Assembly: GCA_003557545.1 (NCBI GenBank)
Contig: PWOD01000024.1
Coordinates: 1-14,701, forward strand
DNA length: 14,701 bases
From: a bacterium
GTDB lineage: Bacteria > T1Sed10-126
Direction: 5' to 3'
Under the pieces are notes generated by a model. It saw only the letters and a list, made by a program, of their open reading frames with translations, made no database searches and was not told where the DNA came from. Position numbers and translations under genes: made by a program. This document shows, in pieces, positions 1-14,701 of the stretch (its first letter is position 1; each line of letters starts with the position of its first letter).

Positions 1-945
1 CATATATCCCACCAAACCGCCAAGTCGGTTGTTGCCTTCCACCTTGCCGGTGGCATAGGAGTTGGATATCTCTTCGTCAGGATTACGCAGACAACCCACC
101 AGACCGCCGACATGCTGAACGCCCTTGACGTCACCGGTGGCATGAGAGTTGTAGATGGAATGATAACTGCGGCCAACCAATCCACCCATGAAGGTTGTTC
201 CATCCCGGACCTCGGCGTCAGAGCTGGAATCCTCGATCAACCCGTAGTTACGGCCGACCACCCCACCCTGGTAACTACGCCGGCCACGGACGGCACCGCT
301 GCTGTGCACCCCGCGGATAACAGTGTTTCTATTGGTATCGGTCCGACCAACAATACCTCCGAAGTCATCATAACGGCCATCAAGTTCGACAACAGCCGTA
401 CAGTTAATCACCGAACCATTGTCATACAGATAACCAACAATTCCTCCTATCTCAAAATCACCGATCACAGTTCCGACAAAGCGACTCTCCTCAATCTCAC
501 CATAGTTACGGCCGGCAATTCCTCCGTGTCGCCGGGTAAATTCACTACCAATATCACCACGAACTTCGCTGTTGTAGATACGTCCATAGTTATAGGCGGC
601 AATCCCGCCAACATCATCGTTACCATAAATATAAACGTGATCGAAGGTTATATTTGCCACTTCACCCTCATTCTGCAGACGGTAGAACAGACCCTGATTA
701 TTGCTGGTGCGATCAATCCGCAAACCGCTGAGGGTATGGCCCTGGCCGTCCAGCCGACCTCTGAAGTTGTCGATCGGGTTCCAGCCGGCACCGACAAAAC
801 CAACCCGGTTGGTATAACCTGCAGCCGCCTGATCAAAACTCCGGATCACCTGATAATGAGCCGTCAAATTGTTACGCATCAGGTGAAGATGTTCCCAGTT
901 GGCAATCTGATAGGGATATGTTTCACTACCGTCACCACCGGCAAA
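1..945 (-). repeat. Composite unit 10, truncated by window edge (residues 4043-4357)
   Basis: The unit begins FAGGDGSETYPYQI with NWEHLHLMRNN. The entry motif is QGLFYR. At least eight GLUG-like motifs follow, mostly of the GGIVG or GGVVG type. The composition differs from the other units, being richer in Arg, Tyr and Asn, with short RRH, GRR and NRN patches. Cys4224 and Cys4327 lie here. The array is still running at base 1 (LGGLVGYM), and no closing SFWD segment is reached. Confidence 0.83.
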
Positions 946-3900
946 TTGAGTGGCAGTATAGACCGCGGTCACCTCGACATCTTCAGTAATAAACAGCTCG
1001 GTAGTCGTGTCCGAACCGGAAGCTGCACCGCCCCACTCAACAAAGCGGTAGTAATCTTCATTTTCAAAATCCTGGTGCTGGTAGATAGCCTCCAGCGTGG
1101 TAATCTCGCCGGCCGTTACACCGGTAGGAGCAACATAAGTCTCACCGTTTACCAGGGCAGTGCCAGCACCGACAAAATTAATCGTTAATCTAAATCTGTC
1201 GTCAAAAAAGGCGACGATCTCTTTGTCAGAATCAACATATAGATGGGCAATCTCATCACTGTCACTAAAGTCACCCTGCCAGCCCCAGAATCTCCAGTAA
1301 TCACCGGTGGTCGGGTCGGTAATTGCACCGGCTTCCAGGGTCAATGTTTCCCCGGAGGTTACTGACAGACTCTCGGTATAGGTGTCACCGTCAACCCAGA
1401 CCACACCCTGACCCTCGATATCGATGGAAACCTCGTAGATATCACGGCTGAAGATGGCCTGGATATTCTTATGGGAATCCATATAGACAGTTTCAGTCGG
1501 GCTGGTTCCGGCCAGATCAGCGGACCAGCGATCAAAATGCCAGAGATTAGAGGCCAGGGCGGTCAGCTCAACTGTATCCCCGGCGGGAAGCCGCAGCTGA
1601 TCAACAAAAGTTTCACCATTAACAAGTACCGCTCCATCACCGATTGTTGATATGTCCAGCGTAAAGGTATCTTCAAAGGTAGCAGTTACCTGCTTGTTGC
1701 CGTCAATAAACAGATCTGCCACGGCATCCTCGCCGAGCAGATCACCGCTCCACTCCTTAAAGCCCCACATGTCGGCGCCAACTGCCTGCAGCTCGACCAT
1801 ATGGGAGGGATAGACCGGAACCGGTTCCGTATAAAGTTGACCGTCCACATAAACCTCACCCTCACCAACGATATCAACCTCAAGACGGTAAACCGGAATT
1901 AGCCAGTTACCTTCGCCCGCCACATGGAAGGGCAGACTATCATTTTGATTGTCAAACTGGCCCTCAATATCCCAGCCAGCATCAAGATAAGTATTAATAT
2001 CCTGCATCTGCGGTTCAAACTGTCCAACTCCACCGGCACTATCGGTCAACCCGGAACTATCAATGTCCCAGAAACTTCCCGACACGGTTCCGGCGATATT
2101 ATGACCGATCAATCCACCTTCAGCCTGGTTTCCTGAAACCTGAGCGGTAGAGAAGGAGCGAGCCACTTCACCGCTACCCAGCCGACCAACCAGTCCACCA
2201 ACTTCAGAATCACCGCTGACGGAACCACGCAGATAAACATCTTGAATACGGCCGTTGAGATAGCCCGCCAGACCACCAGTCCAGTCACCCCCGGAAATCT
2301 GCAGAGACTTAACACCGAGGCTATGAATTAAGCCGGTATCGGCCACCTGACCGAAGATACCGACAGCAGACTCCAGCGGCCGGTTAATCGTCAGATCCTC
2401 AATAATATAACCATTACCGTCAAACTGTCCGGCAAACGGGGTCAACTCATCCCCGATCGGGGACCAGCCAGCGCCACCATCAGCCGAGGAGGAGGCTCTT
2501 TCCTGGTAATTAAAGGTACTGCTATTCAGATCATTTAAGAGAATAAAATATCTGTCACTGTAATGACGGACATTGTTGAGATGATCCCAGTTGGCGATCT
2601 TATAGGGAGCTTCCTCTGTGCCGAAACCACCGGCAAAATGATCAGGCTCAAAGGTGGCTTTGATCGAGGTATCCGCCGCAACGAAGAGCGTCTGTTGTTC
2701 CTCATCACCGGTGAGAGCGCCCTCCCACTCTGTAAAGAACCAGTAATCAGCCGGAACTGCTTCAATTATGGCAGTTTCACCCGGGTTAACCACGGCAAAT
2801 CCGCCGGTAACCTGCTGCTGATTGACATAAACGTCCCCTTCGCCCTCAATCTCAACAGTCAATATAGTGCTTTTCACCCAGGCCGGTGAATCACCGGTGG
2901 GCACCGGATAACCGTCATTCATCACGTCACCGGTACCGACCATGTTCCAGCCGGCATCGAGGTAGGTCTGAATCGATAACATCTCGAGACCGGTTTTAGG
3001 CTCGCCACCGTCACTTGTCGATTGACCGGTAGCATCTTCATCCCAGAAACTATTGATTACCGGAGTATTAATCGAAGGATTCAGGATTCCGGCAGTAAAC
3101 CCGGCGCTATCGACCGAACCAGCCGCATAGGACTCTTCAATCATTCCATCTTCTGCATAGCCGACAAGACCGGCAACAAAATTATCACCGGAAGTTTGTG
3201 CTCGGGAGAAGCTGCGGAAAACCTCACCGCCATCTAAAAATCCAACCAATCCACCGACGGCCTGATTGGCATGGATATGCCCGAGTGAATAGGAATAATT
3301 AATCGCGCCACCATTATTCCACCCGACCAGACCTCCAGCAATCTGTCCGGTAGAGCTCACCTGCACATCGGCAGAAGAAAGATATATGGAGCCAAAGTTT
3401 ACACCGGCCAGTCCACCGATATGATCATCAACAATAGAGGCCTCACCATGGACAGTAACATTATTTAGTTCTCCCCGGTTTTCTCCGACCAGAATACCAA
3501 CATTTCTCTGACCGGTCACCTGGGCATCAAGCAGTTCAACATTCTTAATCAGACTGGCGGAGAAGGTCTGCTCAAACAGCCCCACATTCTCCGAGCCGGG
3601 CCGATCGATATAAAGATCGGAAATAGTGTGTCCCTGGCCGTCTAACTGACCCGGGAAGGGAACTCCAGCCTCGCCGATCGGATCCCATCCAGCCCCAGCA
3701 TCCGCCGTGGGCCCGGCCAGTTCCTGATAACCGAAGGAGGTCTCATCAAGATCATCGACCAGCACGAAGTAGGCACCCATAAAATCACGAATATTATTTA
3801 GATGGAACCAGGAGGCGATTTCAAAAGGATCGGCGACCGAACCACTACCACCGGCAAATAAATCCTGAGCAAACAGCGCTGTAACCAGTTTATCATCATC

Positions 3901-6900
3901 AATATAAAGCTGCTGTTCAAGCTCGTTCCCCGATAACTCGCCACCCCATTCTATGAAATCCCAGAACTGATCGGGCTGGGCAGTTAAGGTAACTGTCTCG
4001 CCGACATCGACCGGGATATAATCTACAATAGTCTCACCATCGACCAGAACAGAACCTGCACCTTCAATCTCAGCCAGGACAACCGCCGGTTTCAACCAGA
4101 CCGGATTTTCCAGATCAGACAGATAGGGATAGCCCTGGTTTTCATCGTGAGCGGTAAACTCAATCTGCCAGCCGGCATTCAGATAATTTTCTCTGCGGCG
4201 CATTTGAGTGGCGGACAGACCGTCGCCTCCCTGGCTGGTCGGCTGATCACTGCTGTCAATATTCCAAAAAGAACCCAGGATCTGGGCGCCACCGGTATTA
4301 TTTCCGGCAAACCCACCACCGGAACCAGTATACTCTACATGGCCGATCGAAAAACTGCGATGAATTTCGCCAGCATCACGATTACGACCGATAAATCCTC
4401 CGACATCCTGCCCCCCGTGAACAGAGCTGCTGGAGTGAGAATTCTCAATCAAGCTTTGATGATTCTCACCAACAAGGCCACCTACCTGCCGTTCACCCTG
4501 CACATGGCCGCTGGAGTAAGAGCGGCGAATTTCTGCGGTATAGCCACCATCAGCGTAGTTGTCCCCGGACAGCCCCCCTACCATTTCAACCCCGGTAACA
4601 TCACCCGAAGCCCGGGAGGCGACAATCGTCCCACCCCAGTTCCAACCGACCAGGCCACCAACATAGTCTTCACCTGTAACCGACCCGGAAGCGGAAGAAT
4701 TCCTGATTGATCCATCATACCAGAGACCACCAACCAGACCCCCATGACCATAAGGCCACTCATAATCCCCGGCATAGCCGACATCAGCGGATGCAGAGGA
4801 ATGATGGATTTCACCATAGTAGCTCTTACCAACCAGTCCACCAACATCAAATCCACCGCTCGATTGACCGCTGGCATAGACATTTTCAACCGTTCCATAA
4901 TAGTTATAGCCAAGCAGCGGACCGACATATCCATAACCGGTTACGTCGACATCCAGCAGCTGCAGATTGAGCAGTCGACTGGCAGTATCGGCGTGCCCGA
5001 ACAGCCCCACGTAACTCTGTTTCGGTCGATCGATAAACAGCCCTTCAATCGAATAATCCTGACCATCAAACTGACCGCTAAACGGAACGGTCTCAGAGCC
5101 AAGCGGCAGCCAGCCGGAGTCCGACCGGGCCGAGGGAGCGGCCAGCTCATAATATCCAGAACTAGTTTCATCCAGCCGGTTAATCAGCTGGAAGTTAGCA
5201 TCTTTATAGTGACGTATATTATCCAGATGGTACCAGTTGCTGATCTGGTAAGGATAGTCAGCCGAGCCATCACCACCGGCAAATTCTGCTATTTCAAAAA
5301 CAGCGGTGACAGTCTTATCATCATCCATTAACAGATCATCAACAATGCTGGAGCCGCTGAGCGCACCCTGCCACTCCTGTAATCTCCAGAACTCATCGGC
5401 CTGGAAATCCCTGTATGGAACGGCCTCAAGCTCAACCATCCCACTGGCCACAACCGGTTCGACATAGGTCTCACCATCAACCAGAGCTTGCCCCTCACCC
5501 ACAACCTTTACGGTTAAAGCCGGGGTCTTTTCCCAGGTTGAGTTGGTTCCCCAGAGATAGGGATAACCATCATATTTAAACTCAGTACCAGCCTGAATAT
5601 CCCAGCCGGCATCAAGATAGGTCTGAAGACTGACAAGCTCAGCAAACTCTAAGCCCGTACCTCCCTGGCTGATTGCTTGATCGGAGGCGGCAATATCCCA
5701 GAAACTTGCATGGATCGTACCGGCATGTTTGACCCCGATCAGCCCACCGAGATCCTCAACCCCGGAAACTGAGCTGCGCGAGAGGACATTGACAACGTCA
5801 CCATTGGAGATAACACCAAATAATCCACCAGCAATCCGGGAAGCTTCCAGCTGCAGATCGGACAGAACGTTATCAACCCGGCCCGAACTGGATCCGGCCA
5901 ATCCACCAACCTGGTTACGACCGGTTACCGATCCATTAAGCCAGACGGTGGAAACATCACCGGCCAGATCTCCGGCCAGCAGACCGACCTTATCCCGGCC
6001 GGCCACTGCGGCCTGTTTGATCGCCAGCTGTTCAATCCGAGCAGTCTCCCCGAGACTGTGAAATAGTCCAACATAGTTTTCATCCGAACGAGCCACAACA
6101 AAATCAGCGATCTGGTGACCAGCGCCAAGCAGTTTACCTGTAAAGGGCTGGGGAAGGGTTCCGATAGGCTGCCAGCCGGCACCATCATGCGCCAGCGGAC
6201 CAGCAAATGAATCGTAGCCCTCACTGGAGGGGTCAAGATCATCGACCAGCAGATACCAGGCATCAAGTGATTGGCGCATATTGTCCAGATGTATCCAGTT
6301 AGCGATCTCATAGGGGGAGGTTTCAGTCCCATCACCAGCGGCATAGGTTGTCCGCTGAAAATCAGCCACAAGCTGCTTGGAACCATCGATCGGCAGCTCA
6401 ACCATCGTATCGGCAGTTGACAGATCACCCCTCCAGCCGGCAAACTCCCAGAACTCTCCGGGAACGGTTTCCAGCAGCAGTGTCTCCCCCGGAACGACGA
6501 CGAGAGGTTCCGAGTAGGTGTCTCCATCGACCAGCACCTGGCCCAGTCCCTCAATTTCCAGCTCAAGCATGGCACCGATCTGCCAGGAAGCAGCGGCAAA
6601 ATCATAATAGGGATAACCGGCATTTTCGAACAGGCCGACTCCAGCAATATCCCAGTCGGCTTCCAGATAGGTACTTAATCTTTGCATATCCCGGGAACTC
6701 AGCCCGGTTCCACCAACACTTCCGTCCTGGCCCGTAGCTTCTGTGTCCCAGAAACTATTTTTAACCTTATCGGTTACAGTTGGCGGAGTATTTAGTATCT
6801 CTACATTTCCATCGATTTTTGCCACCAATCCCCGGGCCAGCCGGGTGGCACTCACCGCTTCGCGAGCAAAACTTGTGCTAATTTGCGAGTTTTCTAAACT

Positions 6901-9900
6901 TCCCACCAGCCCCGCAACCAGATCATGTCCAGTAACCACGGCGTTGGAGGCCGATCTGCTGATCTCTCCGTTCTCAACAAATCCGGCGATTCCTCCGACA
7001 TTCTGACGCCCGGTAACTGAGCCCCAGACCGAAATTCTATCGGCCGATCCCTGGAGATAGCCGGCCACACTACCGGTATGATTACCACCGGTGAGCGACA
7101 GATTATATAGCTGTAAATCTTTAACCGAAGGTGTCTCACCATCCCCGGCAAGAAAACCGAACAGTCCAACATAGCGTCGGTCTGGCTGGTTAATTACCAG
7201 ATCAGAGATTGTATGACCATTTCCATCAAGGGTTCCTTTAAAGGGCTGCCAGTGGTTTTCCCCGACAGGCTCCCAGCCGGCCCCATCGTTGGCACCGGCG
7301 GCGCCGGCGGCTTCATACCCCTGTGTCTGATTATCAAGATCAGCGATCAACCGGTAATGAGCGGTCTGGTTATTTCGTATATTATTCAGGTGGATCCAGC
7401 TGGCGATCAGGTAGGGATCCTCGGCAGTCCCGGTGCCACCGGCAAAAGTGTCGGCGTCAAACAGTGCTGTGGCGAAACCATCGGCAGACACAAACAGCTC
7501 CTGCTGCAGGTCGGGACCCTGAACAGCACCCTGCCATTCGACAAAATCCCAGTACTGACTGGGAACAGCCTCGAGAGTAACCGTGTCAACTGCGGGGAAG
7601 GGGCGAACGTAGGTTTCACCATCAACCAGCGCCGAACCGTCACCGACGAACTCAAGGCTAACTATATAACTCTGGTACCATTCATCACTGCCCGGCTGAC
7701 GGTAGGGATAACCATCATTGAAGACCGGCGCCCGCTTGTTAATCACCCAGCCGGCATTGAGATAATTATTTTGGTCCATCATTTCAGCTGTTGTTAAACC
7801 GATTCCACCGTGACTGTCGATCTGTTCAGAACTTTCCTGATCCCAGAAACTATGGCGGACGAGACCATCCGAGTTAAATCCAACCAGTCCGCCAACATCA
7901 TTATTCCCTGTTACGCGGGCGGTAGAATAACTCTGTTGAATAATCCCTTCATCGACATAACCGACCATACCACCAACATAATTCTGACCATGAACAGCTC
8001 CGCGGACCATCGAACCACTGATCCGACCGTTTAATCTTCCAGCTATAGCACCGAGCTGATCAGCGCCGGTAATTTCGAGATTTACCAGGGACAGGTTGGT
8101 TACTTCACCACCGGCGGCCAGATAGCCAAAAAATCCAGCCGGCGACTGGCCGGGCCGATCAAACCAGAGGTCGGCTATCGTATAACCATCCCCCTCCAGA
8201 TGACCGGTAAATCCGTGATATTGATCAACGACCGGCTCCCATCCGCTCCCGCTGGAGACGATCTCATCATAACCCTCGGTATTAGCGTCAAGATCAGCCG
8301 TAAGTTGATAACTGGCATCCAGAAAACATCCCATATTACTCAGGTGGTACCAGTTACCTATCTGGTAGGGCTCAGCGGCAGTTCCTTCACCAGCGAGAAA
8401 GTTAGGTGTGAAAAGAGGTGTAACATAGATATCGTTTTCCATAAGCAGGACATGAGCCAGGTCATCCCCGCTGACTTCACCCTGCCACTGATCAAAAACA
8501 TAACAGGGAGTTATTTCAAAAGCCTCGAAACCAACGGTTTCACCATAAATTACTCTGACAGGTTCAACGTAGGTTTCACCCTCCACACTGACTCCACCCT
8601 CACCGACTATGTCGACATGGAGATGAAGCACCGGAATAACCCAATCCGGTGTTTCAGAATCGAAATAGGGCAGACCGTCATTATCGACCACCGAGGTTCC
8701 AGTTATCGACCAGCCGGCCGCCTGATAGAGCTCAATATCCCGCATCTCTTTAGTAGTTTTACCGCTGCCGCCATCACTGTCGGGCTGAGCGGTCTCTTCA
8801 AGATTCCAGAAACTATCAGTTACCTGACCGATCTCATTAAAACCTACCAACCCTCCGGTCTGCAGGTTTCCGCTGACCGGACCGGATGCATAGGAGTTAA
8901 CCAGGTCGGCTTGGTAGATGTTTCCAATTAAGCCACCAACCTCCTGGTCACCTGAGACGGTGGCTCTTGAATAACTATTTTCGACCAATCCCTGCCAGCT
9001 TCTTCCAACCAGGCCACCGACGCGATTATCTCCCTCGACGCTCCCTTCAGCAAAGGACTGGCTGATCTGGCCGTCATTTCTTCCAACAAGCCCACCAACC
9101 CGGCTGACACCGGTTATATGACCATCAAAGGCAACCCGTTCCAGGCTACCGTAGTTACGTCCCACCAATCCACCAACATACCAGTTTCCACTAATTTCTC
9201 CCGGTTTAACGGTAAGATTTTTAATTAACCCGTCCTGGCTGGTAAAGCCGAACAGCCCGACATGATCGTCCGCTTCACGATCAATCAGATAATCATGAAT
9301 TTCATATCCCTGCCCGTCAAATTTTCCTGCAAAGGGCTGATTGGGCGCAACAGGTTGATTAAATCTACCAATCGGCCGCCAGCCGTTATTACTGTGGGCA
9401 GCCGGACCGGCATACTGTTCGTAACCATAGGTTGTGGAGTCCAGATCATTCATCAGGATAAAGTGGGAGTCAGGATTGTCACGAACATTGTGCATATGGA
9501 TCCAGGTAACGATCTGAAAGGGATCGGCTTCGGTCCCTTCACCGGCCGAAAACTCCTCCGGTTCAAAGGTTGCGGTAAGATTTTTTTCGCCATCCACATA
9601 GAGATGATAGACAGTATCAGAGCCGCTAATATCGCCACTCCAGCTGTCAAAATACCAGTACAGATCAGGGCGGGTCTCAAGGGTGATTGTTTCACCATGA
9701 ATGATCACCATGGGCTGTTGATATGTCTCACCATCAACCAGCACCGAACCCTCTCCCACAATATCGATTTCCAGGTAAAGTTCAGCTATTTCCCAGTCTG
9801 TATCGCCACCGGTCAGGGCCGGATAACCCTGATTAACCACGGTGGTAATTCCATCTATCTGCCAGCCGGCGTCACGATAGTTATTAATATTTTTCATTTC

Positions 9901-12900
9901 TGAGGTAGACAATCCATCTCCCCCGGCACTAACCGCCTGACCGCTCAGATCGATATCCCAGAAGCTGGCCAGGACGCTGCCACCGAGCTGCTGTCCAACC
10001 AGTCCGCCAAGCTGATCCGCGCCACTAACCGGAGAGACCGCATAGGTTTGATCGATCGTTCCATCGGTGATGCGACCAACCAGCCCTCCAACGACCTCAC
10101 CACCCTGAACTTCGACCATAGAATAAGCATTGTTGATATTTCCAGAATTAACTCCGACCAGACCACCAATAGCTTCGGTTCCCTCGACAGTTCCCGAATG
10201 ATTAATAATATACTGCATCTGGCCGGCAAGATATCCAGCAACTCCACCTACATAACTTTCTCCAACAACTGTGCCGGCATGGCTCTCGACCCAGAGAATC
10301 TCAGCGTCTGCTGTCAGCTGACCAATCAGCCCACCAACCATGTCACGGCCGGTTATCGACAGGTCCCAGGTATGAATCTCGGCAATCTGACCATCGATAA
10401 TCTGACCGGCAAGGGCACCAACCATATCCTGCCCGGTAATGGAAAAATCCCTGATTTCTAGTTGAGTAATCTCTGCCTCACCAGCTAATTTACCAAAGAG
10501 ACCAAGCTTATCCTCAGCCGGCCGGTCGATGACCAGTTGTGAAATCTCATATCCCTGGCCATCAAAATTACCGGTGAAGGGGCTGCCCGGTTCACCAACC
10601 GGTCGCCAGCCGGCATTACTCCAGGCTGACGGCCCAGCATAGGCCGCATAGGCCTCAGAGGTCTCATCAAGTTGATTGATCAGAATAAAATGGGAATCAG
10701 GATAATTGCGAACATTATGCATATGAATCCAGGTGGCAATCTGGTAGGGATCTGTTTCACTGCCATCCCCACCGGCAAACTGTTTAGGAGCAAACTGAGC
10801 GGTTACTGTTTTATCGCTATCGATATAGAGCTGATCAATCGCTTCAGTTCCGGCATGGTCACCACTCCATCCGATAAACTCCCAGTAAATCCGGGGAACC
10901 GCTTCGAGGGTAACTGTTTCACCGGGAACAGCACCACGGACATCAACATAGGTATCGCCGTCGACCAGGACATTTCCTTCGCCCTCGATATTCACCGCCA
11001 GGCGAGCACTGATTGCCCAATCGTTGGGCTGATCCAGCGCAATGTAGGGATAGCCATCATTAGCATAGATAGCCGATCCGGCAATATCCCAGCCGGCATT
11101 GGAAAGAATTGTAAGATTTTTCAGCTCATCTGTGGTTAGACTATCTCCACCGGCACTGTGGGCTATCTGGGAACTTTCCAGATCCCAGAAACTGTCCATC
11201 ACATTACCAAAATCAGCAAAACCCACAAGTCCACCGATTTCATCGTCACCGGTTACCTGGCCGGTTGAGAAGGTTCGGCTGACCGTCCCCCGGACATCTC
11301 CAACCAGCCCCCCGATCCGGTCCAATCCCGACACATTACCCCGAGCATAAGCATTAGTTATCATTCCGCCACCCTGGCGACCAACCAATCCACCAACATT
11401 ACTGACACCGCCAACAGTTCCAGCGGCGTAAGATTCAGCCACGACACCATCGGAGCGACCCAGCAGTCCACCGACTCTATCGGCCCCGCCGGTAACATCA
11501 GCATAAGCGGCACTGGCGGTTATCTCGCCATTAAGAAAATAGCCGGCAAGTCCACCGACATACTGTTCAGTTCCCTGAACTTCTCCGGTTACTTTTACCC
11601 GTTCCAGATTTCCATTTTCTATTCGACCGACAGCCCCACCTGTGTAGCCCTGACCGGATACCTGAAGATCAAGCAACTCAAAGTTATCGATCCGGGCTCC
11701 CGGGTCATCAACAAAGCCGAACAGTCCAACATTATCGGTGCCGGGCCGGTCAATGGTCAGATCACTGATTGTCTGGCCATCACCGTCAAACAGCCCCCGG
11801 AATGGATTGGCAACGGTGCCCAGGGGCAACCAGCCCGCCCCTCCATCGGCCTGCGAAGAGGCCAGTGTGTCATAACCATCCGACTGAGCATCAAGTGATT
11901 CCAGCAGCAGAAACTCCGACTCCAGCTGGCGCCGAACCTCATGCAGCTGATACCAGTCGGTGATCAGGTAAGGATTAAGCTCAGAACCATCACCACCGGC
12001 AAAATTATATACCGTCAGCGGACGACCGGTAAAAGTTGTCCCGGCACCCGCCTCCACCATTGCCCCGTCATCGGCCAACTGGGGCGCGAAATAAAACTCA
12101 TTAACCCCCATCCCATCAAGATGGACGATCTTACTCTGCCGGGTATCACCATCGATCAACAGGTATATTTTTTCATAAAAACCAAACGGTTCCAGACCCT
12201 CAATAAACAGCCGTAGATAGGCCGTCTCTCCGGTGGAGACCTCCAGTTGACTCTGGGCGTCATCCACATCTATCGCAAAATTTGGTGAGTCCAGAACCTC
12301 GACGGTCCGGCTATCCTCATCATCCTCCGTAAATACACGCAGTAAGCTGCCGCTATCGGCCAGGTCAACCGGATAGTCAAACTCCAGCTGCTGGCTGGCG
12401 TTTCCGTCCAGTGTTAGATAACTACTGTCAGCCACCAGTCCGTCAACCTCAAAGTAGACCGGTTTGGTCTCTTCAAAGGGACTGTTATTGCTGATTTCCG
12501 CAGTCACCAGGGAGCTGACCCCCTCGCTTACTCGCAGCCGGCTGGCAGCGTCAATAATATCCACATGAAACTCAATCGGTTCACTCAGAGTCATCCGGTT
12601 CAATACCGGCGAGCTATCACCGGTTGGATGGCTGAACGTGATCCATACATAGATTTCATGAACATCAAAATCCCAGTCCAACTGCAGCTCTGTTTCTCCC
12701 GATAGGTTAAAATTGTAACTATCGAATTCTGCCCAAGCATCGTCATAGCCCTCGATACCTAGATTAATCTCGCCACCATTAAGTTGATAATCAAGGGTTA
12801 GATTCTCTGGCCGACTATTATCCGCCATAAAATTGTTTTCCCAGTTCCCGCTGGTTTCACCGGGAAGCAGCCGAACAGCACCTTCCGGGAGAACTTCCGT

Positions 12901-13071
12901 GTTCCAAAGCCACCCCTGTTCCCAGTCCGCCTGACTGTCATAGATGACCGAAAAATGGGCAGAGGCCACCCCGGCTCCCAACTGCAAAAAGATAAAACTG
13001 AAGAAAAACAGGGTAAGAATAAAACCGATTCGCTGCTGAATTGAGGTATGTTTAGAACCCCTCATGCTCAT
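1..13071 (-). CDS. Giant secreted GLUG / InlB-B-repeat-like surface protein, partial (C-terminus outside window)
   Basis: The minus-strand frame from the ATG at 13071 was read codon by codon to base 1 without meeting a stop, giving at least 4,357 residues. An in-frame TAA lies just upstream (13090-13092). A second in-frame ATG lies at 13065; the first is preferred because an AGG sits 5 nt before it. Order of parts: signal peptide (residues 1-38), unique beta-rich head (39-356), then ten composite units starting near residues 357, 765, 1174, 1558, 1876, 2243, 2597, 3072, 3479 and 4043. I count about 53 GLUG-like motifs, nine SFWD closing segments and twelve InlB-B-repeat-like domains. The protein is acidic and has only four cysteines by my reading (1523, 1582, 4224, 4327). 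GLUG and InlB-like repeats are known from bacterial surface proteins and adhesins. A role in adhesion, cell-cell contact or the cell envelope is inferred. No catalytic domain was seen, and any C-terminal anchor lies outside the window. Confidence 0.95.
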   Translation of the reverse strand, partial: MSMRGSKHTSIQQRIGFILTLFFFSFIFLQLGAGVASAHFSVIYDSQADWEQGWLWNTEVLPEGAVRLLPGETSGNWENNFMADNSRPENLTLDYQLNGGEINLGIEGYDDAWAEFDSYNFNLSGETELQLDWDFDVHEIYVWITFSHPTGDSSPVLNRMTLSEPIEFHVDIIDAASRLRVSEGVSSLVTAEISNNSPFEETKPVYFEVDGLVADSSYLTLDGNASQQLEFDYPVDLADSGSLLRVFTEDDEDSRTVEVLDSPNFAIDVDDAQSQLEVSTGETAYLRLFIEGLEPFGFYEKIYLLIDGDTRQSKIVHLDGMGVNEFYFAPQLADDGAMVEAGAGTTFTGRPLTVYNFAGGDGSELNPYLITDWYQLHEVRRQLESEFLLLESLDAQSDGYDTLASSQADGGAGWLPLGTVANPFRGLFDGDGQTISDLTIDRPGTDNVGLFGFVDDPGARIDNFELLDLQVSGQGYTGGAVGRIENGNLERVKVTGEVQGTEQYVGGLAGYFLNGEITASAAYADVTGGADRVGGLLGRSDGVVAESYAAGTVGGVSNVGGLVGRQGGGMITNAYARGNVSGLDRIGGLVGDVRGTVSRTFSTGQVTGDDEIGGLVGFADFGNVMDSFWDLESSQIAHSAGGDSLTTDELKNLTILSNAGWDIAGSAIYANDGYPYIALDQPNDWAISARLAVNIEGEGNVLVDGDTYVDVRGAVPGETVTLEAVPRIYWEFIGWSGDHAGTEAIDQLYIDSDKTVTAQFAPKQFAGGDGSETDPYQIATWIHMHNVRNYPDSHFILINQLDETSEAYAAYAGPSAWSNAGWRPVGEPGSPFTGNFDGQGYEISQLVIDRPAEDKLGLFGKLAGEAEITQLEIRDFSITGQDMVGALAGQIIDGQIAEIHTWDLSITGRDMVGGLIGQLTADAEILWVESHAGTVVGESYVGGVAGYLAGQMQYIINHSGTVEGTEAIGGLVGVNSGNINNAYSMVEVQGGEVVGGLVGRITDGTIDQTYAVSPVSGADQLGGLVGQQLGGSVLASFWDIDLSGQAVSAGGDGLSTSEMKNINNYRDAGWQIDGITTVVNQGYPALTGGDTDWEIAELYLEIDIVGEGSVLVDGETYQQPMVIIHGETITLETRPDLYWYFDSWSGDISGSDTVYHLYVDGEKNLTATFEPEEFSAGEGTEADPFQIVTWIHMHNVRDNPDSHFILMNDLDSTTYGYEQYAGPAAHSNNGWRPIGRFNQPVAPNQPFAGKFDGQGYEIHDYLIDREADDHVGLFGFTSQDGLIKNLTVKPGEISGNWYVGGLVGRNYGSLERVAFDGHITGVSRVGGLVGRNDGQISQSFAEGSVEGDNRVGGLVGRSWQGLVENSYSRATVSGDQEVGGLIGNIYQADLVNSYASGPVSGNLQTGGLVGFNEIGQVTDSFWNLEETAQPDSDGGSGKTTKEMRDIELYQAAGWSITGTSVVDNDGLPYFDSETPDWVIPVLHLHVDIVGEGGVSVEGETYVEPVRVIYGETVGFEAFEITPCYVFDQWQGEVSGDDLAHVLLMENDIYVTPLFTPNFLAGEGTAAEPYQIGNWYHLSNMGCFLDASYQLTADLDANTEGYDEIVSSGSGWEPVVDQYHGFTGHLEGDGYTIADLWFDRPGQSPAGFFGYLAAGGEVTNLSLVNLEITGADQLGAIAGRLNGRISGSMVRGAVHGQNYVGGMVGYVDEGIIQQSYSTARVTGNNDVGGLVGFNSDGLVRHSFWDQESSEQIDSHGGIGLTTAEMMDQNNYLNAGWVINKRAPVFNDGYPYRQPGSDEWYQSYIVSLEFVGDGSALVDGETYVRPFPAVDTVTLEAVPSQYWDFVEWQGAVQGPDLQQELFVSADGFATALFDADTFAGGTGTAEDPYLIASWIHLNNIRNNQTAHYRLIADLDNQTQGYEAAGAAGANDGAGWEPVGENHWQPFKGTLDGNGHTISDLVINQPDRRYVGLFGFLAGDGETPSVKDLQLYNLSLTGGNHTGSVAGYLQGSADRISVWGSVTGRQNVGGIAGFVENGEISRSASNAVVTGHDLVAGLVGSLENSQISTSFAREAVSATRLARGLVAKIDGNVEILNTPPTVTDKVKNSFWDTEATGQDGSVGGTGLSSRDMQRLSTYLEADWDIAGVGLFENAGYPYYDFAAASWQIGAMLELEIEGLGQVLVDGDTYSEPLVVVPGETLLLETVPGEFWEFAGWRGDLSTADTMVELPIDGSKQLVADFQRTTYAAGDGTETSPYEIANWIHLDNMRQSLDAWYLLVDDLDPSSEGYDSFAGPLAHDGAGWQPIGTLPQPFTGKLLGAGHQIADFVVARSDENYVGLFHSLGETARIEQLAIKQAAVAGRDKVGLLAGDLAGDVSTVWLNGSVTGRNQVGGLAGSSSGRVDNVLSDLQLEASRIAGGLFGVISNGDVVNVLSRSSVSGVEDLGGLIGVKHAGTIHASFWDIAASDQAISQGGTGLEFAELVSLQTYLDAGWDIQAGTEFKYDGYPYLWGTNSTWEKTPALTVKVVGEGQALVDGETYVEPVVASGMVELEAVPYRDFQADEFWRLQEWQGALSGSSIVDDLLMDDDKTVTAVFEIAEFAGGDGSADYPYQISNWYHLDNIRHYKDANFQLINRLDETSSGYYELAAPSARSDSGWLPLGSETVPFSGQFDGQDYSIEGLFIDRPKQSYVGLFGHADTASRLLNLQLLDVDVTGYGYVGPLLGYNYYGTVENVYASGQSSGGFDVGGLVGKSYYGEIHHSSASADVGYAGDYEWPYGHGGLVGGLWYDGSIRNSSASGSVTGEDYVGGLVGWNWGGTIVASRASGDVTGVEMVGGLSGDNYADGGYTAEIRRSYSSGHVQGERQVGGLVGENHQSLIENSHSSSSVHGGQDVGGFIGRNRDAGEIHRSFSIGHVEYTGSGGGFAGNNTGGAQILGSFWNIDSSDQPTSQGGDGLSATQMRRRENYLNAGWQIEFTAHDENQGYPYLSDLENPVWLKPAVVLAEIEGAGSVLVDGETIVDYIPVDVGETVTLTAQPDQFWDFIEWGGELSGNELEQQLYIDDDKLVTALFAQDLFAGGSGSVADPFEIASWFHLNNIRDFMGAYFVLVDDLDETSFGYQELAGPTADAGAGWDPIGEAGVPFPGQLDGQGHTISDLYIDRPGSENVGLFEQTFSASLIKNVELLDAQVTGQRNVGILVGENRGELNNVTVHGEASIVDDHIGGLAGVNFGSIYLSSADVQVSSTGQIAGGLVGWNNGGAINYSYSLGHIHANQAVGGLVGFLDGGEVFRSFSRAQTSGDNFVAGLVGYAEDGMIEESYAAGSVDSAGFTAGILNPSINTPVINSFWDEDATGQSTSDGGEPKTGLEMLSIQTYLDAGWNMVGTGDVMNDGYPVPTGDSPAWVKSTILTVEIEGEGDVYVNQQQVTGGFAVVNPGETAIIEAVPADYWFFTEWEGALTGDEEQQTLFVAADTSIKATFEPDHFAGGFGTEEAPYKIANWDHLNNVRHYSDRYFILLNDLNSSTFNYQERASSSADGGAGWSPIGDELTPFAGQFDGNGYIIEDLTINRPLESAVGIFGQVADTGLIHSLGVKSLQISGGDWTGGLAGYLNGRIQDVYLRGSVSGDSEVGGLVGRLGSGEVARSFSTAQVSGNQAEGGLIGHNIAGTVSGSFWDIDSSGLTDSAGGVGQFEPQMQDINTYLDAGWDIEGQFDNQNDSLPFHVAGEGNWLIPVYRLEVDIVGEGEVYVDGQLYTEPVPVYPSHMVELQAVGADMWGFKEWSGDLLGEDAVADLFIDGNKQVTATFEDTFTLDISTIGDGAVLVNGETFVDQLRLPAGDTVELTALASNLWHFDRWSADLAGTSPTETVYMDSHKNIQAIFSRDIYEVSIDIEGQGVVWVDGDTYTESLSVTSGETLTLEAGAITDPTTGDYWRFWGWQGDFSDSDEIAHLYVDSDKEIVAFFDDRFRLTINFVGAGTALVNGETYVAPTGVTAGEITTLEAIYQHQDFENEDYYRFVEWGGAASGSDTTTELFITEDVEVTAVYTATQFAGGDGSETYPYQIANWEHLHLMRNNLTAHYQVIRSFDQAAAGYTNRVGFVGAGWNPIDNFRGRLDGQGHTLSGLRIDRTSNNQGLFYRLQNEGEVANITFDHVYIYGNDDVGGIAAYNYGRIYNSEVRGDIGSEFTRRHGGIAGRNYGEIEESRFVGTVIGDFEIGGIVGYLYDNGSVINCTAVVELDGRYDDFGGIVGRTDTNRNTVIRGVHSSGAVRGRRSYQGGVVGRNYGLIEDSSSDAEVRDGTTFMGGLVGRSYHSIYNSHATGDVKGVQHVGGLVGCLRNPDEEISNSYATGKVEGNNRLGGLVGYM
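946..2637 (-). repeat. Composite unit 9, with four tandem InlB-like domains (residues 3479-4042)
   Basis: The unit begins FAGGFGTEEAPYKI. Only three GLUG-like motifs are present (TGGLAGY, VGGLVGR, EGGLIGH). The closing segment has SFWDIDSSG, GGVGQFEPQM and AGWDI...DSLPF. Four InlB-B-repeat-like domains follow in a row, where earlier units have one, making this the longest unit at 564 residues. Confidence 0.85.
949..1890 (-). repeat. Tandem array of four InlB-B-repeat-like domains
   Basis: The four copies start at about 1890, 1665, 1437 and 1194 on the minus strand and are 75, 76, 81 and about 81 residues long. Each has the pattern (V/I)-G-x-G-x-V-x-V-(D/N)-G-x-x-(Y/F), then an A/S-G-E/D-T-L-E turn, an aromatic-W pair, and a strand ending near D-x-x-V-x-A-x-F. 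The copies are diverged from one another, so this is not a recent or assembly-generated duplication. Domains of this family commonly act as extended spacers in surface proteins. A stalk here is inferred. Confidence 0.8.
2638..3858 (-). repeat. Composite unit 8 (residues 3072-3478)
   Basis: The unit begins FAGGSGSVADPFEI with WFHLNNIRDF. The entry segment ends VGLFEQ. There are five clear GLUG-like motifs and one decayed copy (SAGFTAG). The closing segment has SFWDEDATGQ and AGWNM...DGYPV, with GGEPKTGLEM in place of the usual GG.GL. One InlB-like domain follows, with VYVNQQQVTGG, which lacks the usual DGETY. Confidence 0.83.
3859..5283 (-). repeat. Composite unit 7, expanded and aromatic-rich GLUG array (residues 2597-3071)
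   Basis: The unit begins FAGGDGSADYPYQI. It has about eight GLUG-like motifs, the most of any complete unit. The first half of the array (about 4600-4930) is rich in Tyr, Trp, His and Gly. The closing segment has SFWNIDSSDQ, GGDGLSATQM and AGWQI...QGYPYL. One InlB-like domain follows, with VLVDGETIVDY. At 475 residues the unit is longer than its neighbours because of extra GLUG coils, not extra InlB-like domains. Confidence 0.83.
5284..6345 (-). repeat. Composite unit 6 (residues 2243-2596)
   Basis: The unit begins YAAGDGTETSPYEI, with the leading Phe replaced by Tyr. The entry segment ends VGLFHS, not VGLFG. Four GLUG-like motifs are diverged (VGLLAGD, VGGLAGS, IAGGLFG, LGGLIGV). The closing segment has SFWDIAASDQ, GGTGLEFAEL and AGWDI...DGYPYL. 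One InlB-like domain follows, with ALVDGETYVEP and WRLQEWQGALSG. Confidence 0.82.
6346..7446 (-). repeat. Composite unit 5 (residues 1876-2242)
   Basis: The unit begins FAGGTGTAEDPYLI with WIHLNNIRNN. There are three clear GLUG-like motifs (TGSVAGY, VGGIAGF, VAGLVGS) and one decayed copy (ARGLVAK). The closing segment reads SFWDTEATGQ, GGTGLSSRDMQ and ADWDI...AGYPYY. Most units have AGW here. One InlB-like domain follows, with VLVDGDTYSEP and PGETLLLETVP. Confidence 0.82.
7447..8400 (-). repeat. Composite unit 4, shortest complete unit (residues 1558-1875)
   Basis: The unit begins FLAGEGTAAEPYQI. Only three GLUG-like motifs are present (LGAIAGR, VGGMVGY, VGGLVGF), and the entry motif is altered to AGFFGY. 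The closing segment has SFWDQESS, GGIGLTTAEMM and AGWVI...DGYPY. One InlB-like domain follows, with ALVDGETYVRP. At 318 residues it is the shortest complete unit, consistent with loss of GLUG coils. Cys1582 lies in the entry segment, 59 residues after Cys1523 of unit 3. Confidence 0.85.
8401..9552 (-). repeat. Composite unit 3 (residues 1174-1557)
   Basis: The unit begins FSAGEGTEADPFQI and carries five GLUG motifs. Three of them are near-identical VGGLVGR copies, spaced about 20 and 24 residues apart between 9003 and 9180. The closing segment has SFWNLEET, GGSGKTTKEMR and AGWSI...DGLPY. The InlB-like domain has VSVEGETYVEP but a less typical second half. It carries Cys1523 in place of the usual aromatic-flanked position, one of only four cysteines in the protein. 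Confidence 0.85.
9553..10779 (-). repeat. Composite unit 2 (residues 765-1173)
   Basis: The unit begins FAGGDGSETDPYQI with WIHMHNVR. It has six GLUG-like motifs, the first of which (VGALAGQ) is degenerate. The closing segment has SFWDIDLSGQ, GGDGLSTSEMK and AGWQI...QGYPAL. One InlB-like domain follows, with VLVDGETY, GETITLETRP, a YWYFDSWSGD core and YVDGEKNLTATF. Its length of 409 residues is almost identical to unit 1. Units 2 and 3 share the entry sequence WIHMHNVR, which suggests they are relatively close copies. Confidence 0.85.
10780..12003 (-). repeat. Composite unit 1 (residues 357-764)
   Basis: The unit begins FAGGDGSELNPYLI and has the full order of parts. The entry segment ends in VGLFGF, followed by six GLUG-like motifs from TGGAVGR to IGGLVGF. 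The closing segment contains SFWDLESS, GGDSLTTDELK and AGWDI...DGYPY. One InlB-B-repeat-like domain follows, with VLVDGDTYV, GETVTLEAVP, the W-x-G pair and YIDSDKTVTAQF. This is the most regular unit and a good template for the others. GLUG stretches are expected to form beta-solenoid-like coils (inference). Confidence 0.85.
12004..12957 (-). other. N-terminal head of the giant protein, with a CARDB-like segment (residues 39-356)
   Basis: This 318-residue region does not repeat elsewhere in the protein. It is rich in Asp, Glu, Trp and Tyr with alternating hydrophobic residues, which suggests beta-sandwich domains. Residues about 178-275 look like a CARDB-type domain: a V-T-A-E-I-S-N-N-S stretch, then P-V-Y-F-E-V-D-G, then an L-D-G...LEFDYPV segment ending before the D-S-P-N linker near residue 280. 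The first part (39-175) has no family I can name, but its two Trp-rich strands could belong to a carbohydrate-binding-like sandwich. This part could be the exposed tip of the protein, which is inference only. The CARDB call rests on pattern alone. Confidence 0.5.
12958..13071 (-). other. Signal peptide of the giant protein (residues 1-38)
   Basis: The N-terminus has a basic n-region (R4, K7, R14), then an uninterrupted hydrophobic core from I15 to about G34 rich in Phe, Leu and Ile. It ends in V-A-S-A followed by H-F-S, a good AxA-type signal peptidase I site after Ala38. No lipobox cysteine is present, so this is not a lipoprotein signal. Export through the Sec pathway is inferred. Confidence 0.9.
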
Positions 13072-13080
13072 CACAACCTG
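13072..13080 (-). promoter_or_regulatory. Weak ribosome binding site of the giant gene
   Basis: The minus strand reads CAGGTTGTG directly before the ATG at 13071. The AGG sits 5 nt from the start codon, a short and weak Shine-Dalgarno match. It supports the start at 13071 over the ATG two codons later, but only modestly. Confidence 0.45.
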
Positions 13081-13350: not shown

Positions 13351-14229
13351 TCAGAGCTGAAGACTGGTCAGCCGCTCCTGGAGCAGTTCAAACTCCCCGG
13401 GATCACTAAAATGAATTCTGATATGACCAGATTTACGATCAGACGATTTAATCTCCACGCTGGCCCCGAGTGCCTTCTCAAGTTCTACTTCCAGCTCACG
13501 ATAGGAGGGCTGAGGAGGTTTTTTAGTTTTTTTAGCCGGTCGGGAAGCGGCCTGTTTGAAGCGGTTAGCCAGCCGTTCGACCTGGCGGACCGACAGAGCT
13601 TCATCGAGCAGCTTCTGCAGCAGCTGTTTAACCTGTCGGAGTTCCAACCCTAACAGAGCTCGGGCGTGGCCGGCGGTGATCTGTCCGGCCAGCAGTGCTT
13701 TCTGGACCGGCTCGGGCAGCTCCAGCAGACGCAGCCGGTTGGCAATCGCGCTGCGACTTTTTCCAACCGAATCGGCCAGCTGTTGTTGATTCCATCCACT
13801 GTTTTCCAGCAGATCACGGAAGGCCCGGGCCTCTTCGAGAGGATTCAGATCCTCCCGCTGAATATTTTCTACCAGGGAAAAAACCCGGGCTTCGGTCTCA
13901 CTGAGCTGCAGCTCAATCACCGGAACTCGCTCCAGACCGGCCTGGAGAGCAGCCCGCCAGCGCCGTTCACCGGCAATAATCTGAAACTGCTGGTCGCCCT
14001 GCCGGCTGACCAGCAGCGGCTGCACCAATCCGTTCTGTGCGATCGAATCAGCCAGTTCACGGAGGCGGTCCGGATCAAACTCCCGCCGCGGTTGTTCGGG
14101 ATCGGGGCTGATTAAATCAACCGGAACTCTCTGCAGCTGCCCCTCGGCTGCCGGCTGACCAGCAGCCGGATCGAGCGGCGGCAGCAGGGAATCAAGACCA
14201 CGTCCCAACCCACTATTCTGTTTGTTCAC
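13351..14229 (-). CDS. parB: Chromosome-partitioning protein ParB
   Basis: This is a 292-residue ParB of normal length. ParB binds parS sites near the origin, spreads on DNA as a CTP-dependent clamp, and works with ParA and SMC in chromosome segregation. Visible parts are an N-terminal LGRGLDSLL motif (residues 8-16) expected to contact ParA, and a ParB/Srx nucleotide-binding domain (about 35-125) with the CTP-binding GERRWR (87-92) and ENIQRE (121-126). A helix-turn-helix follows (about 147-168, QQLADSVGKSRSAIANRL), then a lysine-rich linker near 240 and a C-terminal dimerisation segment. The start is a GTG at 14229, chosen because it gives the canonical N-terminus, and a GAGGAG lies upstream. 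It overlaps the end of parA by 17 bases, which suggests translational coupling. The closely related nucleoid-occlusion protein Noc is less likely beside a ParA partner. Confidence 0.97.
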   Translation of the reverse strand: MNKQNSGLGRGLDSLLPPLDPAAGQPAAEGQLQRVPVDLISPDPEQPRREFDPDRLRELADSIAQNGLVQPLLVSRQGDQQFQIIAGERRWRAALQAGLERVPVIELQLSETEARVFSLVENIQREDLNPLEEARAFRDLLENSGWNQQQLADSVGKSRSAIANRLRLLELPEPVQKALLAGQITAGHARALLGLELRQVKQLLQKLLDEALSVRQVERLANRFKQAASRPAKKTKKPPQPSYRELEVELEKALGASVEIKSSDRKSGHIRIHFSDPGEFELLQERLTSLQL

Positions 14230-14701
14230 GCCAGATCAACTCCTCGGTTGCACGCATATATGCAGCGCACCCACGCGAAGCAGGTGAATGAACTGCAACC
14301 GGTTTACCATAACCGGGAGCCTCACTCAACTTAATATTACGTGGGATCACACTGCTGAACAGCTTATCAGGAAAATAGTTCTGGACCTCCTGCTTAATCT
14401 CCCGGGCCAGGTTGGTCCGACTGTCGTACATGGTCAGGAGAATCCCCAACAGCTCCAGCCGGGAATTTAATCGCCGGTTGACCTGCTGAACCGTCTGCCA
14501 CAGCTGACTCAAACCCTCCAGAGCATAATATTCAGCCTGCAGAGGAATCAGCAGCCGCTCCACCGCGGCCAGCCCGTTGAGAGTCAGGGGACCCAGCGCC
14601 GGCGGGCAGTCGACGATAACCCAATCAAACTCCCCCTCCAGCTGCTGCAGAGCGGTTTTCAGCTCTGTGAAATCAGATCCCCGGCGGGGCAGGTCGGCCC
14701 G
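14213..14701 (-). CDS. parA: Chromosome-partitioning ATPase ParA (Soj), partial, C-terminal part only
   Basis: The visible 162 residues are the C-terminal part of a ParA/Soj-type deviant Walker ATPase, which cycles on the nucleoid and positions ParB-bound origins. The frame is open to the right edge, so the N-terminus with the P-loop lies outside the window. Walker B and switch II are clear in FDWVIVDCPPALGPLTLNGL. They are followed by LLIPLQAEYYALEGLSQL, a typical LLGILLTMYDSRTNLA stretch, and the late motifs IPRNIKLSEAPGYGKPV and SRGCAAY. These match chromosomal Soj proteins closely, not plasmid ParA families. The TAG stop (14215-14213) lies inside the start of parB. Confidence 0.96.
   Translation of the reverse strand, partial: RADLPRRGSDFTELKTALQQLEGEFDWVIVDCPPALGPLTLNGLAAVERLLIPLQAEYYALEGLSQLWQTVQQVNRRLNSRLELLGILLTMYDSRTNLAREIKQEVQNYFPDKLFSSVIPRNIKLSEAPGYGKPVAVHSPASRGCAAYMRATEELIWREQTE
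14240..14245 (-). promoter_or_regulatory. Ribosome binding site of parB, inside parA
   Basis: GAGGAG lies within the parA coding sequence, 10 nt before the parB GTG. The match is strong and the spacing slightly long. It supports the GTG start and coupled translation of parA and parB. Confidence 0.6.

Follow-up and report, generated by a model that had tools for sequence, protein, structure and literature searches.

A giant open reading frame beside parB in the T1Sed10-126 lineage is the 5′ part of a gene for a modular GLUG β-helix protein of probable cell-surface type

The window, a stretch of 14,701 nucleotides that forms the entire contig C228, carries on its minus strand a single giant gene, of which it holds the 5′ part. 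We consider it likely (probability of about 0.7) that this gene encodes an exported, acidic, rod-like cell-surface protein, with a T9SS-like exit and a role as a contact stalk. The frame runs from an ATG at 13071 to base 1, and its translation has 4,357 codons and zero stops; an alternative in-frame GTG start at 13074 gives 4,358 codons, also open at the 3′ end. The frame leaves the assembly as well as the window, and its 3′ end is missing. The window is organised as follows.

1..13071, minus strand: 5′ part (4,357 codons) of the gene for a giant modular protein, predicted to be exported, with the 3′ end beyond the contig (open reading frame, translation, Pfam)
12958..13071, minus strand: predicted Sec signal peptide, MSMRGSKHTSIQQRIGFILTLFFFSFIFLQLGAGVASA, the sole strongly hydrophobic segment (hydrophobicity, by eye)
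12004..12957, minus strand: N-terminal region preceding unit 1, without a Pfam match (profile search)
10780..12003, minus strand: unit 1, GLUG β-helix and InlB-type B repeat
9553..10779, minus strand: unit 2, GLUG β-helix and InlB-type B repeat, modelled with a pLDDT of 95.2
8401..9552, minus strand: unit 3
7447..8400, minus strand: unit 4
6346..7446, minus strand: unit 5
5284..6345, minus strand: unit 6
3859..5283, minus strand: unit 7, with a longer β-helix
2638..3858, minus strand: unit 8
946..2637, minus strand: unit 9, with four tandem InlB-type B repeats at about 946–1887
1..945, minus strand: unit 10, the contig end falling within its GLUG β-helix
13351..14229, minus strand: parB, the upstream neighbour of the giant gene on the same strand
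14213..14701, minus strand: parA, its 5′ end lost at the opposite contig end

The signal peptide is followed by an N-terminal region of approximately 318 residues and then by ten diverged units, which start (GTG numbering) at residues 358, 766, 1175, 1559, 1877, 2244, 2598, 3073, 3480, and 4044. The signal peptide was assigned by sequence inspection and hydrophobicity and is predicted; the readable part of the frame has no second strongly hydrophobic segment. Relatives of the N-terminal region (about 27–38% identical) are found elsewhere among the giant frames of this genome, with no match among 58 other genomes. The units are 315–564 amino acids long (unit 10 is cut) with pairwise identities of 28–46%, and every full unit consists of a GLUG block and then an InlB-type B repeat (one copy, four in unit 9). 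Both domains score far above their Pfam cut-offs on the giant frame, Glug with an E-value of 4e-71 (231 bits, cut-off 20.5) and the InlB-type B repeat (PF18998) with an E-value of 3e-46 (155.8 bits, cut-off 23.6). Single GLUG motifs exceed the Pfam cut-off 12 times in the window; with profiles built in this analysis, the frame has 41 repeats of GLUG-like type and 12 B repeats. The ten-unit alignment served as input for a model of unit 2, the β-helix of which (pLDDT 95.2) matches 3n6z in the PDB with a Z of 29.8 over 266 residues (rmsd 3.1). The non-catalytic β-helix of IgA1 proteases gives Z values of 25–29; the next rows have a Z of 16.6. Unit 2 is confidently modelled as a GLUG β-helix, each full unit would contain such a helix, and the B repeats would be spacers separating the helices. 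The protein is acidic, with a pI of 4.1 as compared to 7.1 for ParB.

The first-pass annotation had reported an uninterrupted minus-strand frame of at least 4,357 codons leaving the window. This is borne out, the Pfam domains recurring throughout a translation free of stops. The shadow frames that it warned of are also found, the complete open reading frames beneath the giant frame in other frames being at most 243 amino acids long. That the gene is very large and runs off the window stands, but counting it in the size class of the largest bacterial genes is too strong (PMC11573180). Draft assembly cuts genes of such size, and gene callers limited to complete genes overlook them. When the last 1,000 bases at the contig end were compared with the other contigs as DNA, no match was good enough for an overlap. 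Contigs C6, C8, C11, and C179, which start inside a GLUG block, were read as candidate 3′ continuations; none is provable as the continuation.

The draft genome of the window (G000) has 2.15 Mb in 239 contigs and is 91.9% complete. As 56 of its contigs were searched, the counts of giant frames are lower bounds. At least 36 frames of 1,000 amino acids or more have GLUG, B-repeat, or C-terminal domain (CTD) matches and make up 10.4% of the assembled bases; with frames of any length, the figures are at least 65 and 12.8% of the assembly. A contig end is touched by 24 of the 36 large frames, and the longest, with 5,487 codons, is likewise cut. GLUG matches occur in 2 of the 59 genomes compared, G000 (103 matches) and G001 (12 matches), the latter being, apart from G000, the sole member of the G000 family in this set. 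A small genome of an uncultured lineage (approximately 2.2 Mb) thus devotes at least one-tenth of its assembled bases to giant proteins of surface type. T1Sed10-126 is the name of a phylum with no cultured members, whose reported habitats are hypersaline soils and a salt mine (PMC10104926, PMC12942990). The ParB of the window is 55% identical to that of T1Sed10_126, the nearest named genome, the parB gene of which is 100% identical to that of G001; by this relationship, G000 would belong to the T1Sed10-126 phylum. A consensus scan located no terminator between parB and the giant gene. In T1Sed10_126 (L070, 10874–16449), chemotaxis genes (cheB, cheW, cheR, and MCP) come next after parB, on the opposite strand, so a giant gene at the parB site is not common to that genome.

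Most sibling giant frames that have their 3′ end terminate in a CTD of group A1 or A2, which are related domains. Both of the group A2 CTDs tested pass the T9SS type A model TIGR04183 (25.8 and 29.7 bits, cut-off 23); group A1 reaches 17–18 bits, below this cut-off. Against the PDB, the group A1 profile matches the CTDs of PorZ (5m11, E-value 1.6e-5) and PorU (6za2, E-value 9e-4), and this CTD also weakly matches FlgD_ig and CHU_C. Six loci in G000 and ten in G001 score above the cut-off for the PorV/PorQ family. A distant SprA-like N-terminal half is present as a fragment of 1,011 amino acids (L272, contig C23, 56–3088; 74.5 bits, cut-off 200), the contig ending in the gene. The fragment belongs to a genome outside Bacteroidota. 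Contig C86 was considered as a second SprA half; its weak C-terminal match was unconfirmed by hmmscan. The related genome G001 yielded no SprA, and no PorU sortase protease was found in the 92%-complete G000, in which the PorU model is matched by the CTD part alone.

From these sequence comparisons, a T9SS-like export route is likely in G000, and its giants probably reach the cell surface via a type IX-like secretion system. For the window gene, we infer this route from the CTDs of its siblings. The protein would cross the inner membrane by Sec, its missing C-terminus would be a type A-like T9SS CTD as in the siblings, and a translocon of SprA/PorV type would carry it through the outer membrane. 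At the surface it may form a long stalk touching other cells, particles, or matrix, in adhesion or as a surface coat; the fold class suggests such a contact or binding role. Of the earlier proposal of a surface protein with a C-terminal anchor, the probable surface protein holds; the readable part of the frame has no LPXTG motif. The type IX signal is the best supported of the anchors proposed; it is found in sibling genes, the window gene's own C-terminus being absent. With this genome one can ask concretely whether type IX-like secretion can export chains longer than 4,000 residues, and to what extent it occurs outside Bacteroidota.

The same giant exported protein could use another anchor or secretion route, with the T9SS-like CTDs of the siblings being FlgD-type Ig domains that work elsewhere. 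The missing C-terminus of the window gene would allow this, as would the weak scores of group A1 against FlgD_ig and CHU_C, the weak SprA match, and the failure to find the PorU protease. However, a group A1 or A2 CTD closes most siblings whose 3′ end is present, group A2 is above the TIGR04183 cut-off where tested, and the PorV family is both present and adjoins CTD genes; we regard this alternative as unlikely.

The remaining alternatives question the gene itself. That it is decaying or silent, and open merely by chance or recent duplication, appears very improbable. Decay may occur in the family, since the frame of one sibling (contig C214) is broken by two stops, TAA and TAG, but the ten units of the window gene are 28–46% identical, free of stops, and without a repeated 20-mer, which argues for long divergence under constraint. 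Moreover, the chance of 4,358 codons without a stop is approximately 10^-91 at the base composition of the frame's strand. Still more remote is an assembly artefact in which separate genes or repeat copies were wrongly joined. The assembly is a draft, with the high proportion of large frames at contig ends given above; against this, no 20-mer is repeated within the giant frame, so that misassembly through exact repeats is unlikely, the base composition is fairly even along the frame, and Tandem Repeats Finder reports nothing. We regard the frame as a real gene, of which the window holds the 5′ part only. A phage origin was considered and rejected, the N-terminal region having no match in phage records. 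GLUG units have relatives in 37 IMG/VR viral contigs (L297–L333), so the GLUG domain alone is uninformative on origin.

In G000, each of the six PorV-family genes above cut-off directly follows a CTD-bearing gene of the same strand (contigs C73, C231, C119, C136, C77, and C53), and nine of the ten in G001 are downstream of a CTD on the same strand (contigs C118, C6, C23, C79, C45, C20, and C102). In one such pair of G000, L281:9683–10528 comes after L281:10650–12194. The spacing from CTD to PorV is 87–301 bases, measured between profile matches, which overstates the actual gaps. A single PorV serves the type A cargo proteins in Flavobacterium johnsoniae, whereas a type B cargo gene is commonly followed directly by a cognate PorP/SprF gene (PMC12618676). 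The G000 arrangement, with PorV-family genes directly downstream of single CTD genes, resembles the layout known for the type B CTD with PorP/SprF (PMC12618676). This pairing is seen elsewhere in the two genomes and not in the window, from which the 3′ end of the giant gene is absent. No description of this layout for a type A-like CTD and a PorV-family gene was found in the literature searched, which is no proof of novelty. We tentatively suggest, at less than even odds, that in this candidate phylum a type IX-like system is the exporter of dozens of giant rods, and that single type A-like cargo genes each have a PorV-family shuttle to themselves. If so, the logic of one cargo and one shuttle, so far described for the type B CTD with PorP/SprF, would hold for type A-like cargo.

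The ingredients are already known, namely giant proteins in bacteria, GLUG helices, B repeats, and type A CTDs; new here are the window gene as a member, its architecture, and the scale of the family in the T1Sed10-126 lineage. The β-helix with GLUG rungs is common to the GLUG-motif proteins (PF07581), such as Bacteroides ovatus BACOVA_03286 (PDB 3n6z). BACOVA_03286 is one domain of 339 residues, whereas the window protein is a single chain in which ten diverged units alternate with InlB-type B repeats. Streptococcal and Gemella IgA1 proteases (M26) also share a non-catalytic GLUG-type β-helix with it. In contrast to these enzymes, the readable frame has no metalloprotease motif (no HExxH in 4,358 residues), and on present evidence the readable part of the protein is not a protease. 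Giant1–4 of Apilactobacillus kunkeei are surface proteins of 3,000–8,000 amino acids, and Giant1–5 occupy 6% of its small genome (PMC12863079). These giants and the window protein are both very large, of extracellular type, and built with β-solenoid domains. A. kunkeei is Gram-positive with five genes in one cluster; G000 has dozens of scattered genes, with T9SS-like CTDs in the siblings. With the T9SS type A cargo (TIGR04183) and its PorV shuttle, G000 shares the type A-like CTDs of the siblings and the presence of the PorV family.

Some further members of the family deserve description. On the minus strand of L188 (contig C214, 3–16061), a frame with InlB-type B repeats is broken by TAA at 14850–14852 and TAG at 13380–13382, and represents a decaying giant gene, a sequence error, or a population variant. 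Near-identical GLUG segments lie close to the starts of two contigs (L153, contig C8, 2–3034; L154, contig C11, 1–2523), a sign of possible recent duplication or gene conversion among giants. Tandem giants, two to three per row on one strand, occur at L167/L168 (C104), L176 (C133), L156 (C20), and L162 (C80).
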